Below, piece by piece: positions 53,550-62,939 of a stretch of 64,000 bases of DNA. The position numbers and the translations under genes were made by a program. Source of the DNA: Silicimonas algicola (GTDB lineage Bacteria > Pseudomonadota > Alphaproteobacteria > Rhodobacterales > Rhodobacteraceae); assembly GCF_003148765.1 (NCBI RefSeq), contig NZ_QGGV01000001.1:614001-678000 (forward strand), in the 5' to 3' direction. Position 1 is the first letter of the stretch, and each line of letters begins with the position of its first letter. Under the pieces are notes generated by a model. The model did no database searches, was not told the DNA's origin, and saw only the letters and a list, made by a program, of their open reading frames with translations.

Positions 53550-55574
53550 TCACCGATCCATCGTCTCGGCCAGCCGCATCAGCGTGACCGCCTCGGCGCG
53601 ATAGCCGTAGGGGTCCGCCCCTCGCGCGCCGTTCGCCAGGGCGATGGCGTCGCCCCAGCCCCAGGACCCCAGGTACTCGCCGCCCCGCAGCAACTGCCCG
53701 AAGCCCGCGATGGCGACCGAGAAGCGTGCGTCGTCCGAGACCTCGCCCTGTCCTGCCAGGATCGGTTCCTCGATCAGGGTGCTCTGCGCCTCGCCCGGCC
53801 GCTTGTAGCGCAGCTTGAAGAACCCAAGCTCGTCCGACCCGTCCGACACCGCCGCCGCCTCGCCGTACCGCAACGGCCCGTTGCGAACCGCCTCGGATCC
53901 CACCGGCGTCACCTCGTAGAGAGCCGTCACCGTGTGACCCGCGCCGATGTCGCCCGCGTCCACCCGGTCGTTGTTGAAGTCCTCGCGGTTCAGCGCCCGC
54001 GTCTCATAGCCGATCAGACGGTATTCCGCGATTTCCGCCGGGTTGAACTCCACCTGGATCTTCACGTCGTTCGCAATCGGGAACAGCGCGCCCGTCAACT
54101 GGTCGACCAGCACCTTCCGCGCCTCCGACAGCGTATCGATATAGGCCGCCGTCCCGTTCCCGTTCTGCGCCAGCGCCTGCATCGTCGCATCGTCGAGGTT
54201 GCCGCGCCCGAAACCAAGCACCGACAGGTACGTCCCGGCCTCGCGCTTCTCCTCGATGAAGTCCTTCAGCGCCTCGGGATCGGACAGCCCTACGTTGAAG
54301 TCCCCGTCCGTCGCCAGGATCACCCGCGTCACCTCGCCGTCGCCCGCCATGCCTTCCGCCACCGCATAGGCCTGCTGCAGACCCTCCTGTCCGGCGGTCG
54401 AGCCGCCCGCCTCCAGCCGGTCGAGCGCTGCGAGGATCGTCGAGCGCTCCGCCGCCCGCGTCGGCTCCAGCACCTGACCCGCCGAACCTGCGTAGGTGAC
54501 GATGGAGACCTCGTCCTCGGGCCGAAGCTCGGACAGCATCAGCCGGAACGACTGCTTCAGAAGCGGCAGCTTGTTCGCGTCCTGCATCGATCCCGACGTG
54601 TCGATCAGGAACACGAGATTGAGCGGCGGACGGTCTGCCACGGGGAGCAGCGTCCCCTGGATGCCGATATGCACAAGCTGCGTGCCCGGGTTCCACGGCG
54701 TGTCCATCACCGTCACCGTAGGCCGGAACGGATCGTCGCCCTCGGGCGCGGGATAGGCGTAGGGGAAATAGTTCACCATCTCCTCGACCCGCACCGCCTC
54801 GCGCGGCGGCATCGCGCCCACCATCAGCGAGGAGCGCACCACGGCATAGCTCGCCGTATCGACGTCGATCGAGAAGGTCGACACCGGCTCCTCCGCCGTC
54901 ACCTTCAGGGGCGAGGTTTCGGCATTCGCGAAGGCCTCGGTGTCGCTCTCGGGCAGAACGATCATGCCGTCGCCCGGCGCAACGAGACGCTTCTCGCGCA
55001 TCGCGACGCTCGGCGCCGGCGCGGCCATGTCGCCGTCGGCGAAGGCCTCGGACTCTTCGGCGGCAGGCGCCTGGGTCGCCAGATCCTCGGAGCGCTGGCG
55101 CGACAAGGCGTCGGCCGACGGCGCCACCGGAACCGGGGCAGGGGACATCTCGGCCAGCGATTCCGCCGCGACGATGGAGGAGGTCGCACCCGTCGCGCCG
55201 CCCGACGCGTCGTCGGCCACCTTCGGCTGCTCGACGGCGGGCGGGGCCGCGCCCTCGCTCTGCGTCAGCACATCGCCGCCGACGGGCAACTTCATCGCGT
55301 CCTTCGGCAGGATCACGAGCAGCCCCACCGCCACGATGGCGGTGGTCACGGTCAGGGCGCCTTTGGTCGAAAGGGCATGGAACATCGGTTTCACTCCGTC
55401 CAGAAGCCGGGACATCCGGCCTTTCCGAACAGTCAGACGCGCCGCGTCGCGCGATCCTTGGAGGTCCGCGAAATTTTTCTGCGCCAGCGCGATATTCTCC
55501 CGCTTCCGCGCCTCGTCGGGCGCGGGCGTCGCCGCCTCGAAGGCGCGCTTCAGGTCGTCGAGTTCTTCAGCCAT
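53550..55574 (-). CDS. Membrane-anchored VWA-domain protein (YfbK-like)
   Basis: A 674-residue protein. Residues 1-60 are cytoplasmic and charged. One membrane segment (~70-90) is followed by a low-complexity linker (~95-200), then the YfbK N-terminal region (PVSTFSIDVDTASYAVVR, ~230), a VWA domain with the MIDAS motif LIDTSGSM (~318-325) and ILATDGDFNVG (~415), and a C-terminal DUF3520 region. It overlaps the sigma-factor gene by eight bases. The cytoplasmic N-terminus with its single helix resembles an anti-sigma layout, so it may hold the sigma factor and sense the envelope through the VWA part. That is inference. Confidence 0.85.
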   Translation of the reverse strand: MAEELDDLKRAFEAATPAPDEARKRENIALAQKNFADLQGSRDAARLTVRKGRMSRLLDGVKPMFHALSTKGALTVTTAIVAVGLLVILPKDAMKLPVGGDVLTQSEGAAPPAVEQPKVADDASGGATGATSSIVAAESLAEMSPAPVPVAPSADALSRQRSEDLATQAPAAEESEAFADGDMAAPAPSVAMREKRLVAPGDGMIVLPESDTEAFANAETSPLKVTAEEPVSTFSIDVDTASYAVVRSSLMVGAMPPREAVRVEEMVNYFPYAYPAPEGDDPFRPTVTVMDTPWNPGTQLVHIGIQGTLLPVADRPPLNLVFLIDTSGSMQDANKLPLLKQSFRLMLSELRPEDEVSIVTYAGSAGQVLEPTRAAERSTILAALDRLEAGGSTAGQEGLQQAYAVAEGMAGDGEVTRVILATDGDFNVGLSDPEALKDFIEEKREAGTYLSVLGFGRGNLDDATMQALAQNGNGTAAYIDTLSEARKVLVDQLTGALFPIANDVKIQVEFNPAEIAEYRLIGYETRALNREDFNNDRVDAGDIGAGHTVTALYEVTPVGSEAVRNGPLRYGEAAAVSDGSDELGFFKLRYKRPGEAQSTLIEEPILAGQGEVSDDARFSVAIAGFGQLLRGGEYLGSWGWGDAIALANGARGADPYGYRAEAVTLMRLAETMDR

Positions 55575-56106
55575 CCACGGCCTCCTTCATCGCGCGAAGG
55601 CGCTTCTTCACCTCCGACATCCGCCAGCTCACCGTGCCCTCGCTCACGCCCAGGATCTCTCCGGCCTCGGCATGGGTCATCTCGTCCATCACCAGCGCCA
55701 CCGTGTCCCGCAACTCGTCCGGCAGCGCGCGCATCGCTCGCGCCAGCCAATCCATCGCCGCCGCCGCCTCCGCCGCCTCGGCCCGCCGCGCGTCCTCGAC
55801 GTCGCCCCAGCCATCCGCCGTCCGCGCGCGCGTCGCCGCCCGCCGCCGCCGGTCGTTCGCCGCGTTGACCGCGACCCGCCACAGCCATGTGGTGAACCGC
55901 GCCTCGCCGCGAAAGGCCCTGACCTTGGCGGGCAGGGCCGCGCAGATGTCCTGGCACAGATCCTCTGCCTCGGTCCGGACGCCCGTCAGCCGGAAGCACA
56001 AGCGGAACAGCCGGTCATAATGCCGCGTCACCAGCGCCGAGAACGCCGCCGCGTCGCCGCCCGCCGCCTCGCGCGCCAGTGTCTCGTCCGAGGTATCCAT
56101 GCGCAT
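55567..56106 (-). CDS. RNA polymerase sigma factor, sigma-70 ECF-like
   Basis: A 179-residue ECF-size sigma factor. Region 2 (~25-90) has YDRLFRLCFRLTGVRTEAED and FTTWLWRVAVNAANDRRRR; region 4 (~125-175) has ALPDELRDTVALVMDEMTHA and the helix-turn-helix VSEGTVSWRMSEVKKRL. It has a longer, Ala-rich linker between them. ATG 56106 is used; a later in-frame ATG and a GTG just upstream are possible, none with a good ribosome-binding site. It is translationally coupled to the VWA protein and divergent from the dioxygenase-like gene. Confidence 0.85.
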   Translation of the reverse strand: MRMDTSDETLAREAAGGDAAAFSALVTRHYDRLFRLCFRLTGVRTEAEDLCQDICAALPAKVRAFRGEARFTTWLWRVAVNAANDRRRRAATRARTADGWGDVEDARRAEAAEAAAAMDWLARAMRALPDELRDTVALVMDEMTHAEAGEILGVSEGTVSWRMSEVKKRLRAMKEAVDG

Positions 56107-56211
56107 CACGGTTGGTAGGACGCACGCGCCCGGTCAATCCTTGGCCGTCCTCACGAAAAATTTCGACGGGCCTCCGTGTCTCGTGCGTTGTACCCCGAAA
56201 GGAGCAGACGC

Positions 56212-59197: not shown

Positions 59198-59353
59198 CGT
59201 GGGTCCCCCGTTTGATGCCTGTCCCGCCTGTAGACCGCGACCCGTGACGCCCGTGTAACGGTCGCATGTCGGTTTCATGTCACGCCACGCCCCGCGCCGA
59301 TTGCCGAGGGGGAAGGGGATTGCTAACACCCGGTGACGCGAGGAGAACCGCCC

Positions 59354-60517
59354 ATGCCCGTCATCACCGAGATCGCCGACCTCAAGCGCATCTACACGCG
59401 CCGCGTGCCGCGGATGTTCTACGACTATGCCGAGAGCGGATCCTGGACCGAGCAGACCTTCCGCGAGAACACGACCGACTTCGGCAAGATCTACCTCCGC
59501 CAGCGCATCGCCGTCGACATGGCCGGGCGCACCACGCGCACGAAGCTGATCGGCGAGGACGCCGCGATGCCGGTCGCTATCGCTCCGGTGGGTCTTCTGG
59601 GCATGCAAAGCGCCGACGGCGAGATCAAGGCCGCCCGCGCCGCCGAGGCCTTCGGCGTGCCCTTCACGCTGTCCACCATGTCGATCTGCTCGATCGAGGA
59701 TGTGGCCGCCCACACCACGAAGCCCTTCTGGTTCCAGGTCTACACGCTGAAAGACGACGTCTTCATGGGCAAGCTCATGGACCGGGCGCGGGCGGCGAAG
59801 TGCTCGGCCATCGTCATCACGGTCGATCTCCAGATCATGGGCCAGCGCCACAAGGACCTGAAGAACGGCCTGACCGCGCCGCCCAGGTTCACCCTGTCGT
59901 CACTGGCCGACCTCTCGACGAAGATCCCCTGGGGGCTCGAGATGATGCGGACCAAGCGCCGCTTCTTCGGCAACATCGTAGGCCACGCCTCGGGCGTGTC
60001 GAACCCCGCCTCGCTCTCGTCATGGACGGCCGAGGCCTTCGATCCCTCGCTCAACTGGGACCGGGTGAAGCAACTGATGGACATGTGGGGCGGCAAGGTG
60101 ATCCTGAAGGGGATCATGGAGGTGGACGACGCCATCCGCGCCGCCGACCTTGGCGCCGACGCCATCGTGGTCTCGAACCACGGTGGGCGTCAGCTCGACG
60201 GCACGATCTCGTCGATCCGTGCCCTCGAACCCATCGTCAAGGCCGTGGGCGACCGCACCGAGGTCTGGATGGACGGTGGAATCCGGTCGGGTCAGGACGT
60301 GCTGAAAGCCGTGGCGCTCGGCGCGAAAGGCACCATGATCGGCCGCTCGATGGTCTACGGATTGGGCGCCATGGGCGAGGCAGGAGTGAGTCGCGCGCTG
60401 GAGGTCATCCAGAAGGAGCTCGACCTCTCGATGGCCTTCTGTGGCAAGCGTGACATTCATGACGTCGATCGTGAAATTCTTCGCGTCCCCAAAGGTTTCT
60501 CTGGCGATTTTGACTGA
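59354..60517 (+). CDS. FMN-dependent alpha-hydroxy-acid dehydrogenase (LldD-like)
   Basis: A 387-residue FMN enzyme of the lactate/glycolate oxidase family. Signatures are MFYDYAESGSW (~21), APVGLLGM (~77), ILKGI with the FMN-contacting Lys (~251), SNHGGRQLDGTISS with the catalytic His (~276) and DGGIRSGQDVLKA (~307). It oxidises an L-2-hydroxy acid such as lactate, at the membrane. GAGGAGAACC precedes the ATG. A 15-pair hairpin lies 17 bases after the stop. The exact hydroxy acid cannot be decided. Confidence 0.92.
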   Translation: MPVITEIADLKRIYTRRVPRMFYDYAESGSWTEQTFRENTTDFGKIYLRQRIAVDMAGRTTRTKLIGEDAAMPVAIAPVGLLGMQSADGEIKAARAAEAFGVPFTLSTMSICSIEDVAAHTTKPFWFQVYTLKDDVFMGKLMDRARAAKCSAIVITVDLQIMGQRHKDLKNGLTAPPRFTLSSLADLSTKIPWGLEMMRTKRRFFGNIVGHASGVSNPASLSSWTAEAFDPSLNWDRVKQLMDMWGGKVILKGIMEVDDAIRAADLGADAIVVSNHGGRQLDGTISSIRALEPIVKAVGDRTEVWMDGGIRSGQDVLKAVALGAKGTMIGRSMVYGLGAMGEAGVSRALEVIQKELDLSMAFCGKRDIHDVDREILRVPKGFSGDFD

Positions 60518-60570: not shown

Positions 60571-60662
60571 GTTGATGCAAAGATGTCTCGGTCATGATCA
60601 TGGAACAGCCCGTTTCCTGCCCAAATCTTGCCGCATTCCGGTTTCGCGCATACCTTCTCGGT

Positions 60663-61223
60663 ATGACCCAGCGTAATCGTTCCCTGTCGATCCTTGCCGT
60701 TGCGGCCCTCTGCTCCGCTGCTCCTCTCGCAGCCCAGTCTGCGTCGAGCATCGCCGCTGAGGCCGAGTTCCCGAACCAGACGGTCGCCATCGTCGCCGCC
60801 ACCTCGTCGCTCTTCGACTCGGTCGAAGGACCGGAAAGCGCGCAGCGTCGCCGTGCGCCCGCGATCCGCATCCCGCAGCTCGAGACCCGCGCCAGCTTCG
60901 ACGGCGACGCCAAGGCCGAGGCGCTGACGCAGAATGGGCCGGTGCGCCACCTGACCGGCTACCGCATCACCTGGTATCCGATCGACCGCTTCCTCGGCAC
61001 CGTCGACTTCATGGGCACCTGGGACGGTAACCGCAACCTCGTCTGCGGCTATGTCACCTGGGATCTCTCCGACACCGAGAACCCGGTGCTCGAGCAGGTC
61101 GACGCAAGCTACCTCTCGCTCGACGACCTCTCCGCCGCCAGCCCCGCCGACGCGCACCAGATGCTCCTCGACGCGAACTGCGCCTACGGCGACATCGACG
61201 CGAACTACGCCTTTTTCGACTGA
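60663..61223 (+). CDS. Exported protein of unknown function
   Basis: A 186-residue protein with a clear signal peptide (SLSILAVAALCSAAPLAAQ, residues 7-25). The mature part has no family I recognise: a Ser/Thr-rich start, then LTGYRITWYPIDRFLGTVDF and VCGYVTWDLSDTENPVL, and a Tyr/Asp-rich end. Two cysteines (in LVCGY and ANCAY) could form a disulfide. ATG 60663 is used for the signal peptide; an ATG at 60594 gives a 23-residue extension that does not look like a leader. No strong ribosome-binding site is present. It stands between the dehydrogenase and a metal transporter and seems independent. Confidence 0.6.
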   Translation: MTQRNRSLSILAVAALCSAAPLAAQSASSIAAEAEFPNQTVAIVAATSSLFDSVEGPESAQRRRAPAIRIPQLETRASFDGDAKAEALTQNGPVRHLTGYRITWYPIDRFLGTVDFMGTWDGNRNLVCGYVTWDLSDTENPVLEQVDASYLSLDDLSAASPADAHQMLLDANCAYGDIDANYAFFD

Positions 61224-61242
61224 CGCCAGGGCACTCTCCTAC

Positions 61243-61259
61243 ATTGGAACGATTCTAAA
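61243..61259. promoter_or_regulatory. Iron-control-element-like (Irr/ICE) site upstream of the ZIP gene
   Basis: ATTGGAA-CGA-TTCTAAA matches the Irr-box consensus TTTAGAA-N3-TTCTAAA at 12 of 14 fixed positions; the right arm is exact. It lies 61-77 bases before the metal transporter start codon, where a promoter would be. Irr is the main iron regulator in many alphaproteobacteria. Confidence 0.5.
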
Positions 61260-61319
61260 AAAGCGCTTCACCTCGGCGGCGAAGCGGCTATGCTCGCTCG
61301 CTCATTGCAGCGAGACGAG

Positions 61320-62108
61320 ATGACGATGGAAACGATGTCCCCGGTAATGCTGGGTTTTCTGGGAAGCCTCGTGGCGGGCCTGATGACGGCCGCGGGGGCG
61401 CTTCCCGTTCTCTTCGGACGCCAGCCCTCGCGGGCGGTGCGCGACATGTCCCTCGGCTTTGCAGCAGGCGTCATGATTGCCGCCTCGTTCTTCTCGCTCA
61501 TCATCCCCTCGCTCGCGGCCGCCGAAGAGATCTTCGGCGACGGCGCCCTGCCTGCCGCCATCGCCTGCATCTCGATCCTCTTCGGCATGGGCGGGGTCCA
61601 CCTGATGAACGAGCTTCTCCCGCACGAGCACTTCACGCTCGGACGCGAAGGCCCCGAGGCAGCCTCCCTCCGCCGCGTCTGGCTCTTCATCATCGCCATC
61701 ACCATCCACAACTTCCCCGAAGGCCTCGCCGTCGGCGTGGGCTTCGGCGCCGACGGCATGTCGGGGGGACTGCCCCTGGCCATCGGCATCGGCTTGCAGA
61801 ACGCGCCCGAAGGCCTCGCTGTCGCGGTTGCGCTTCTGGGCGAGGGCTACAGCAAGTTCCGCGCCTGGGGCATTGCCGCACTGACGGGCCTTGTCGAACC
61901 CGTGGGCGGTCTCCTCGGCGCAGGGATCATCACCTACTCCGAGCCGCTTCTGCCCTGGGGCCTCGCCTTCGCGGCGGGCGCGATGCTCTACGTCATCAGC
62001 CATGAGATCATCCCCGAGACGCACCGTTCCGGGAACCAGAACAAGGCGACCTTCGGTCTTGCCATCGGCCTCGTCGTGATGCTTTTCCTCGACGTCTGGC
62101 TCGGCTAG
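61320..62108 (+). CDS. ZIP-family metal transporter
   Basis: A 262-residue protein with eight membrane segments and the two metal-site helices of the ZIP family: TIHNFPEGLAVGVGF (~126-141) and GIGLQNAPEGLAVAVALL (~153-170). The typical H-N-x-P-E-G motif is in the first and the second has Q-N-A-P-E-G. It imports zinc, iron or manganese. ATG 61320 is used; an ATG two codons later is possible. The iron-control-element-like site upstream suggests that iron availability regulates it. Confidence 0.88.
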   Translation: MTMETMSPVMLGFLGSLVAGLMTAAGALPVLFGRQPSRAVRDMSLGFAAGVMIAASFFSLIIPSLAAAEEIFGDGALPAAIACISILFGMGGVHLMNELLPHEHFTLGREGPEAASLRRVWLFIIAITIHNFPEGLAVGVGFGADGMSGGLPLAIGIGLQNAPEGLAVAVALLGEGYSKFRAWGIAALTGLVEPVGGLLGAGIITYSEPLLPWGLAFAAGAMLYVISHEIIPETHRSGNQNKATFGLAIGLVVMLFLDVWLG

Positions 62109-62291: not shown

Positions 62292-62939
62292 ATGGCTGGA
62301 GAGATCCCGGATCTCGTCGCCACGGTACGGACGGGGACAGGCAAGGGGGCCGCCCGTCAAGCTCGCAGAGAAGGGCTCGTACCTGGCATCGTCTACGGCG
62401 GCGGCACTGACCCGCTTCCGATCAACCTCCCCTATAACGTGCTGTTCAAGCGTCTGAAAAACGGTCGTTTTCTTTCGACGCTGTTCAACATGCAGGTCGA
62501 AGGCCACGATGACGTCCGCGTCATTTGCCGCAGCGTCCAGCGCGACGTCGTGAAGGACCTGCCCCGGCACGTCGACTTCATGCGCCTCAAGCGCACTTCG
62601 AAGGTCAACCTCTACATCCCGGTCGAGGTCGTGGGTCACGAGAACTGCCCCGGCATCCGCAAGGGCGGTGTCCTGACCATGGTGCGCCCCGAGGTCGAAC
62701 TCATCGTGACGGCGGGCAACATCCCCGACCACATCACGGTCAGCATCGAAGGCCTGAACATCGGCGATAGTGCAACGATTTCAATGGTCGACCTGCCCGA
62801 AGGCGCCGAGCCGACGATCCACCGCGACTTCGTCATCGCCAACATCCAGGCGCCCTCGGGCCTTGCGAGCCAAGCTGACGACGACGAGGCGGACGCCGAC
62901 GACGTTCCCGCAACCGCGCAGGATGCCGACGACGAGTGA
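62292..62939 (+). CDS. rplY: 50S ribosomal protein L25 (CTC type)
   Basis: A 215-residue long-form L25/CTC protein that binds 5S rRNA. The N-terminal part has [20 protein letters not shown] (~17-36), the RNA-contacting segment, and HVDFMRL (~93). The C-terminal domain has [19 protein letters not shown] (~121) and a final ~30 residues rich in Asp. It begins with an ATG 10 bases after GGAG. It ends with a strong terminator. In related genomes pth follows rplY, but here the next gene is convergent, so that order is not conserved. Confidence 0.93.

Follow-up and report, generated by a model that had tools for sequence, protein, structure and literature searches.

Genes of the ZIP family are commonly annotated as zinc transporters. 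In Salmonella and Streptococcus, ZIP proteins contribute to the import of manganese (PMC9334652, in excerpt). Among the closest described systems is the Irr regulon. In B. japonicum, the Irr protein persists at low iron, is degraded in the presence of heme or iron or of H2O2, and represses mbfA and bfr (PMC4902296, in excerpt). In R. sphaeroides, mbfA is an Irr target bound in vitro (PMC3413700, in excerpt); binding by this Irr is weak (0.8-0.9 uM), and manganese favoured the Irr-DNA complexes.

Here, we compare these systems with a ZIP locus in a 64-kb stretch of DNA (hereafter, the window). Judging by its letters and by the genes that share it, the palindrome upstream of the ZIP gene is, with a probability of about three in four, an Irr operator that places this single ZIP gene in the Irr regulon together with mbfA, nfuA and isc-suf. 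The gene is thus predicted to encode a metal-uptake ZIP protein that is probably tied to the iron and manganese response of the cell.

The ZIP gene and its neighborhood

The following features are discussed below:

61243-61259, plus strand: putative Irr box (ICE-type palindrome) ATTGGAACGATTCTAAA, from the consensus scan, the weight matrix and a near-identical nfuA box
61320-62108, plus strand: ZIP-family metal transporter, 262 aa, from Pfam Zip and the BbZIP alignment
61240-61245, plus strand: candidate -10 element TACATT overlapping the box, from reading the sequence against mbfA
61267-61294, plus strand: possible alternative weak promoter TTCACC-16-TATGCT, 3' of the box, from an nfuA-like geometry
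60594-61223, plus strand: preceding gene, 209 aa, without Pfam or NCBIfam match
62292-62939, plus strand: ribosomal protein L25 gene, downstream (context)
59333-60517, plus strand: FMN-dependent dehydrogenase gene (context), a neighbor of many other ZIP genes of the family

The assignment of the transporter is based on the Pfam domain PF02535 (105.2 bits, cut-off 35.1) and on the alignment of its residues 11-262 with the BbZIP structures (E 7e-58); the score with the ZupT equivalog NF003243 is 143.1 bits, below the cut-off of 252. The protein contains the motifs HNFPEG and QNAPEGL, the second of which provides no clue to specificity, since QN is commoner than QD in the relatives. Alternative starts of the gene are ATG 61326 and ATG 61290, and the N-termini of the relatives align best with 61326. 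Elsewhere in the window, an ECF-like sigma factor gene with Sigma70 regions 2 and 4 (55567-56109, minus strand) overlaps a gene of the von Willebrand factor A / YfbK type (53550-55574, minus strand).

The palindrome and its statistics

The 17-bp Irr-type palindrome ATTGGAACGATTCTAAA at 61243-61259 (plus strand) departs from TTTAGAA-N3-TTCTAAA at two positions, which bears out the 12 of 14 matches counted in the earlier note. It is the sole site in the 64 kb with at most three mismatches to this consensus, and such a site occurred in 7 of 100 shuffled windows (0.07 expected on average). The box lies in the 96-bp intergenic gap 5' of the ZIP gene, 19 bp after the stop codon of the preceding gene, and its end is 60 bp from the ATG at 61320; the place is thus, as had been proposed, a fitting one for transcription control. 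Rfam covariance searches of the whole window at gathering thresholds returned one tRNA only and no manganese riboswitch 5' of the ZIP gene.

A weight matrix was derived from 76 anchor sites, located at nfuA, iscR, mbfA and dps-like genes of this genome and its relatives, with the ZIP site excluded. The ZIP site scores 28.0 bits, the nfuA, mbfA and iscR sites of the same genome score 27.8, 24.2 and 21.1 bits, respectively, and the runner-up place in the window scores 0.1 bits; these values are partly circular, because the anchors were selected with related patterns and include the nfuA, mbfA and iscR sites themselves. Where the ZIP box deviates from the consensus, it has A at position 1 and G at position 4, and both letters are common among the anchors (15% and 20%, respectively).

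A genome scan for the motif, suggested earlier as a check, identified four places with at most two mismatches: the ZIP gene, the upstream regions of iscR and nfuA, and the interior of a cysteine-desulfurase gene. The reversed control pattern gave two places at this threshold, and with at most three mismatches the counts were 11 for the box and 23 for the control. The genome-wide counts by themselves are unremarkable, with no clear excess over the control, so that the significance of the box comes from the identity of the genes bearing it and not from the number of matches. Such comparable counts are also what a chance palindrome without function would produce; against this explanation, the site is intergenic, stands at promoter distance and has the form of a family-specific variant known at nfuA.

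Since iscR and nfuA share the box, the Iron-Rhodo-box of IscR was considered as another identity for the motif. It was set aside by its description as a 19-bp motif resembling the RirA box (PMC4618611, in excerpt).

The box at other genes of the genome and its relatives

The iscR-like gene behind one of the boxes in this genome encodes an Rrf2 domain, and the next gene, encoding a class-V aminotransferase-fold protein, is interpreted as that of the cysteine desulfurase IscS. Within this desulfurase gene, the site includes TTAGAAATATTCTAGA, a stretch of 16 bases that recurs letter for letter in a sequence shown by gel shift to be bound by R. sphaeroides Irr (PMC6956336, in excerpt). The nfuA-like gene (Nfu_N and NifU domains) has its box 56 bp upstream (L004:7661-7677), and mbfA (Rubrerythrin and VIT1 domains) has a copy with three mismatches 12 bp before its start; the other places with three mismatches are six in number (L080-L085). 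Thus, the box is also present at established Irr targets, namely mbfA and the desulfurase-gene site.

The variant seen at the ZIP gene (at most one mismatch to ATTGGAACGNTTCTAAA) was found in 32 of the 147 genomes searched, this one included, compared with 7 for the reversed control. Thirty loci of this type were examined: 21 are at nfuA, one is at iscR, one is the ZIP locus itself, and seven match no query gene. Across 21 related genera, an Irr-type box stands directly 5' of a conserved nfuA promoter; excerpts of the R. sphaeroides Irr work do not name nfuA among the Irr targets.

With the plain consensus we collected 83 box sites (81 distinct), allowing two to three mismatches in this genome and one in the relatives. 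The sample comprises sites obtained directly as loci together with the sites of 39 additional regions, a 40th region being the ZIP locus of genome G174. Among the matches listed, the box adjoins iscR at 21 or more distinct loci, nfuA at 18 or more and mbfA at 12 or more, as well as a Dps-like gene at five loci or more, one of which (L114) was tested and has a Ferritin domain. One further locus (L143) is a ferritin-domain gene, and the remaining matches listed are single genes or places without an assigned gene.

Fur-family regulators of the genome

Two Fur-family matches were identified in this genome, one Irr and one Zur-like. The irr gene, which adjoins a FabA-domain gene, scores 202.9 bits with the NCBIfam model IrrA (cut-off 150); the lack of an Irr gene, named earlier as a reason to abandon the proposal, is therefore not what the genome presents. 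The Zur-like protein scores 120 bits, below the NCBIfam cut-off of 167, and its gene has a ZnuA-domain gene and an ABC ATPase gene as neighbors. In one profile search no third Fur-family match was obtained, and the best canonical Fur/Mur score was 61 bits, whereas the best match is 110-143 bits in the 66 relatives having one. Likewise, one profile search for MntH/Nramp gave no match in this genome.

We also scanned for the palindrome that we take to be the Zur-type operator. It is present with two mismatches in the zur-znuA gap, and its best occurrence 5' of the window ZIP gene has five mismatches.

Boxes upstream of related ZIP genes

The sample of ZIP genes comprises 122 loci with 103 distinct upstream regions, obtained from searches of 120 and 394 genomes of the family and from nine named loci. 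With at most two mismatches, the Irr box was found in two of the 103 upstream regions, a Mur-like palindrome in five, and the Zur-type palindrome in none; in each of 10 shuffled sets the Irr box was found in none.

The two Irr-boxed ZIP genes are those of the window and of G174, which belong to different clades. The G174 protein is 55% identical to that of the window, and its gene has TTTAAAATGATTCTAAA (one mismatch) 31 bp before the start. In the tree, whose rows are the 122 loci minus 18 too short and 12 identical, the window ZIP falls in a clade of 48 rows (support 100/96, with bootstrap unsettled), and the G174 ZIP falls outside it; the two boxes were thus probably gained separately. In G174 the ZIP and L25 genes are divergent and the Irr box lies in their common gap (L152:1727-1902), so that control of L25 is conceivable as well. 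The box is absent from the examined ZIP relatives that are 80-85% identical to the window ZIP. Absence from these closest relatives would fit a palindrome that arose by chance, whereas its recurrence at a distant ZIP gene and its lack in the shuffled sets argue against this, and together with the position and form of the site they lead us to consider a fortuitous match improbable.

The Mur-like palindrome TTGCNAATNATTNGCAA precedes five ZIP genes with at most two mismatches, compared with a mean of 0.2 and a maximum of 2 in shuffled sets; the pattern was written after the first hits had been seen, and the five of 103 is therefore a post hoc count. In five of 80 genomes (G074, G218, G285, G300 and G409), the same palindrome is found no more than about 110 bp from a canonical fur/mur gene, and this closeness supports its assignment as a Mur box. 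Upstream of the window ZIP, the best match to it has six mismatches, in a genome with no Mur match. At one locus (L202, genome G371), 45 bp 5' of the ZIP gene, TTGCGAACGATTCGCAA seems to stand midway between the Mur-like and the Irr-like palindrome, and an intermediate of this type is a possible route for an exchange of regulators.

Since some of the relatives' ZIP genes bear Irr-like or Mur-like boxes and none bears a Zur-type one, iron and manganese are favoured over zinc. A zinc importer that is controlled by Zur or constitutive, with the box irrelevant to physiology, would agree with the control of ZupT-type ZIP genes by Zur in some other bacteria (PMC6103462, in excerpt). Irr itself has a link to zinc, as expression of znuA rose in the R. 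sphaeroides irr mutant and DAP-seq of Brucella Irr identified the zinc exporter gene zntA as a target. With the Zur-type site present at zur-znuA and missing at the ZIP genes, we regard this explanation as unlikely. The view of the earlier note that the ZIP gene, if the box works, belongs to the iron or manganese response, and is not a zinc uptake gene under Zur, is thus supported by the presence of irr and the lack of a Zur-type site.

Mur and MntH across genomes

The Fur-family census covered 80 of the 95 ZIP-bearing genomes by one profile search. A canonical Fur/Mur match is present in 66 of the 80 and absent from 14. The 14 Mur-less genomes include both Irr-boxed ones (Fisher 0.029, post hoc), and the 66 Mur-bearing genomes include all five Mur-boxed ones (Fisher 0.58, post hoc); the other 12 Mur-less genomes have neither an Irr nor a Mur-like box 5' of the ZIP gene. 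A separate search matched the TTGCNAATNATTNGCAA pattern in 36 of the 66 genomes with Mur and in 4 of the 14 without it, a difference that is suggestive only (Fisher 0.14). A profile search for Nramp/MntH in 27 genomes gave no match in both Irr-boxed genomes and in 15 others, and the absence of MntH alone therefore says little.

Because the ZIP gene of some Mur-bearing relatives carries a Mur-type box instead, Irr may do in this genome what Mur does in the Mur-boxed relatives. This exchange of Irr for Mur is the interesting part of the comparison, with two cases behind it. Extended to a tentative scenario, to which we give low credence, Irr would have taken over a ZIP manganese importer independently at least twice in Rhodobacteraceae devoid of Mur and MntH, and excess of heme or iron, or peroxide, would inactivate Irr and thereby switch manganese import on directly. 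If this were true, the replacement of iron by manganese would be run by Irr alone and coupled with iron export and storage.

Promoter geometry and predicted direction of control

Two arrangements of box and promoter were observed in the Irr-boxed genes. In 35 of 36 nfuA promoters, the exception being L148, a conserved -35 element TTGAC follows 1-4 bp after the end of the box, and a -10 element CATAT lies beyond it. At mbfA, 9-16 bp separate the box from the start codon, and the box seems to overlap the -10 element and the start region; the 5' end of R. sphaeroides mbfA maps inside the box (PMC3413700, in excerpt), as the mbfA geometry here would have it. The ZIP box has the flanks CTAC (before) and AAAG (after) in common with mbfA of the same genome, and these flanks favour the mbfA-like geometry of a repressor site. 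The candidate -10 element TACATT has no good -35 element in front of it. The alternative promoter TTCACC-16-TATGCT, with a start near 61301, has a weak -35 element 7 bp from the box, and a strict promoter scan at the ZIP gene recovered neither an mbfA-like nor an nfuA-like candidate. Because the elements of the ZIP promoter are weak, the direction of control is not legible from the sequence.

Irr could instead bind and activate from a box 5' of TTCACC-16-TATGCT, so that the ZIP gene would serve iron acquisition and be induced when iron is low. The nfuA box upstream of the -35 element offers a precedent, as the ZIP box may be placed alike, about 42 nt before the presumed start, and ZIP proteins can carry iron (PMC9334652, in excerpt). 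In addition, the isc-suf promoters P1 and P2 of R. sphaeroides are modestly lower in the irr mutant according to excerpts of that work, which opposes simple repression. However, at low iron the irr mutant of R. sphaeroides expresses more ccpA, whose box lies about 40 nt before the start (PMC3413700, in excerpt). Given also the weakness and 7-bp spacing of the -35 hexamer and the flanks common to mbfA, activation appears doubtful, although less so than a chance match or a zinc importer. A box is no guarantee of binding, since in the same excerpts R. sphaeroides Irr did not bind the iscR promoters P1 and P2 in vitro, though a box is predicted at P2.

Repression by Irr and transport of manganese are the favoured direction and metal. 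Under the repression reading, (i) Irr bound to the ZIP box would repress transcription of the ZIP gene, (ii) transcription would take place in iron-replete cells or during oxidative stress, and (iii) the ZIP protein would import manganese, or some other divalent metal, while iron is exported and stored. With Irr as a repressor, an iron importer is implausible, as the cell would shut it down just when iron runs short, whereas an importer of manganese (or zinc) acting at high iron or under oxidative stress would fit.

Comparison with known systems

A search of the literature by title found no Irr-controlled ZIP gene; beyond its reach were the predicted regulons for which Rodionov et al. 2006 is reportedly the source. 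The word ZIP has no occurrences in PMC3413700, neither 'zip' nor 'zupT' begins any word in the main text of the DAP-seq paper on Brucella Irr, and PMC3772312 contains both 'ZIP family' and 'Irr'. On sequence grounds, the ZIP gene adds a probable new target, with a genuine-looking operator, to a regulon already described. Regulatory DNA here points away from zinc for a ZIP gene, and from the Irr-or-Mur pattern seen in different genera the metal as well as the regulator can be predicted in a way that is inexpensive and testable. If the assignment is true, an importer is added to a regulon that, in excerpts of the R. sphaeroides work, covers iron storage and export, a peroxidase and iron-sulfur assembly.

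The locus resembles four described systems and differs from each of them. (i) The Irr regulon of Rhodobacteraceae (mbfA, ccpA, isc-suf) has the same palindrome, and this genome has irr and boxes at mbfA, iscR, the desulfurase gene and nfuA; here, however, the target is a ZIP metal importer, whereas the targets named in excerpts for R. sphaeroides are mbfA, ccpA and isc-suf. (ii) In the plasmid-borne DUF411/ZIP/lspA/lnt clusters of Rhodobacterales, the ZIP proteins are 84-85% identical to that of the window. In the two plasmids opened, a DUF411 gene is followed by ZIP, lspA and lnt, whereas the window gene has the 209-aa gene on one side and L25 on the other and is preceded by a gap and a box of its own. 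(iii) The protein is like BbZIP and ZupT in its HNFPEG and QNAPEGL motifs and in the BbZIP alignment over residues 11-262, but differs from ZupT in scoring below the equivalog cut-off (143 vs 252 bits). (iv) As in the Mur-controlled uptake of manganese in alphaproteobacteria (sitABCD, mntH), a divalent-metal importer stands behind a Fur-family operator; unlike those systems, the window genome has no Mur match, and the operator is of the Irr type.
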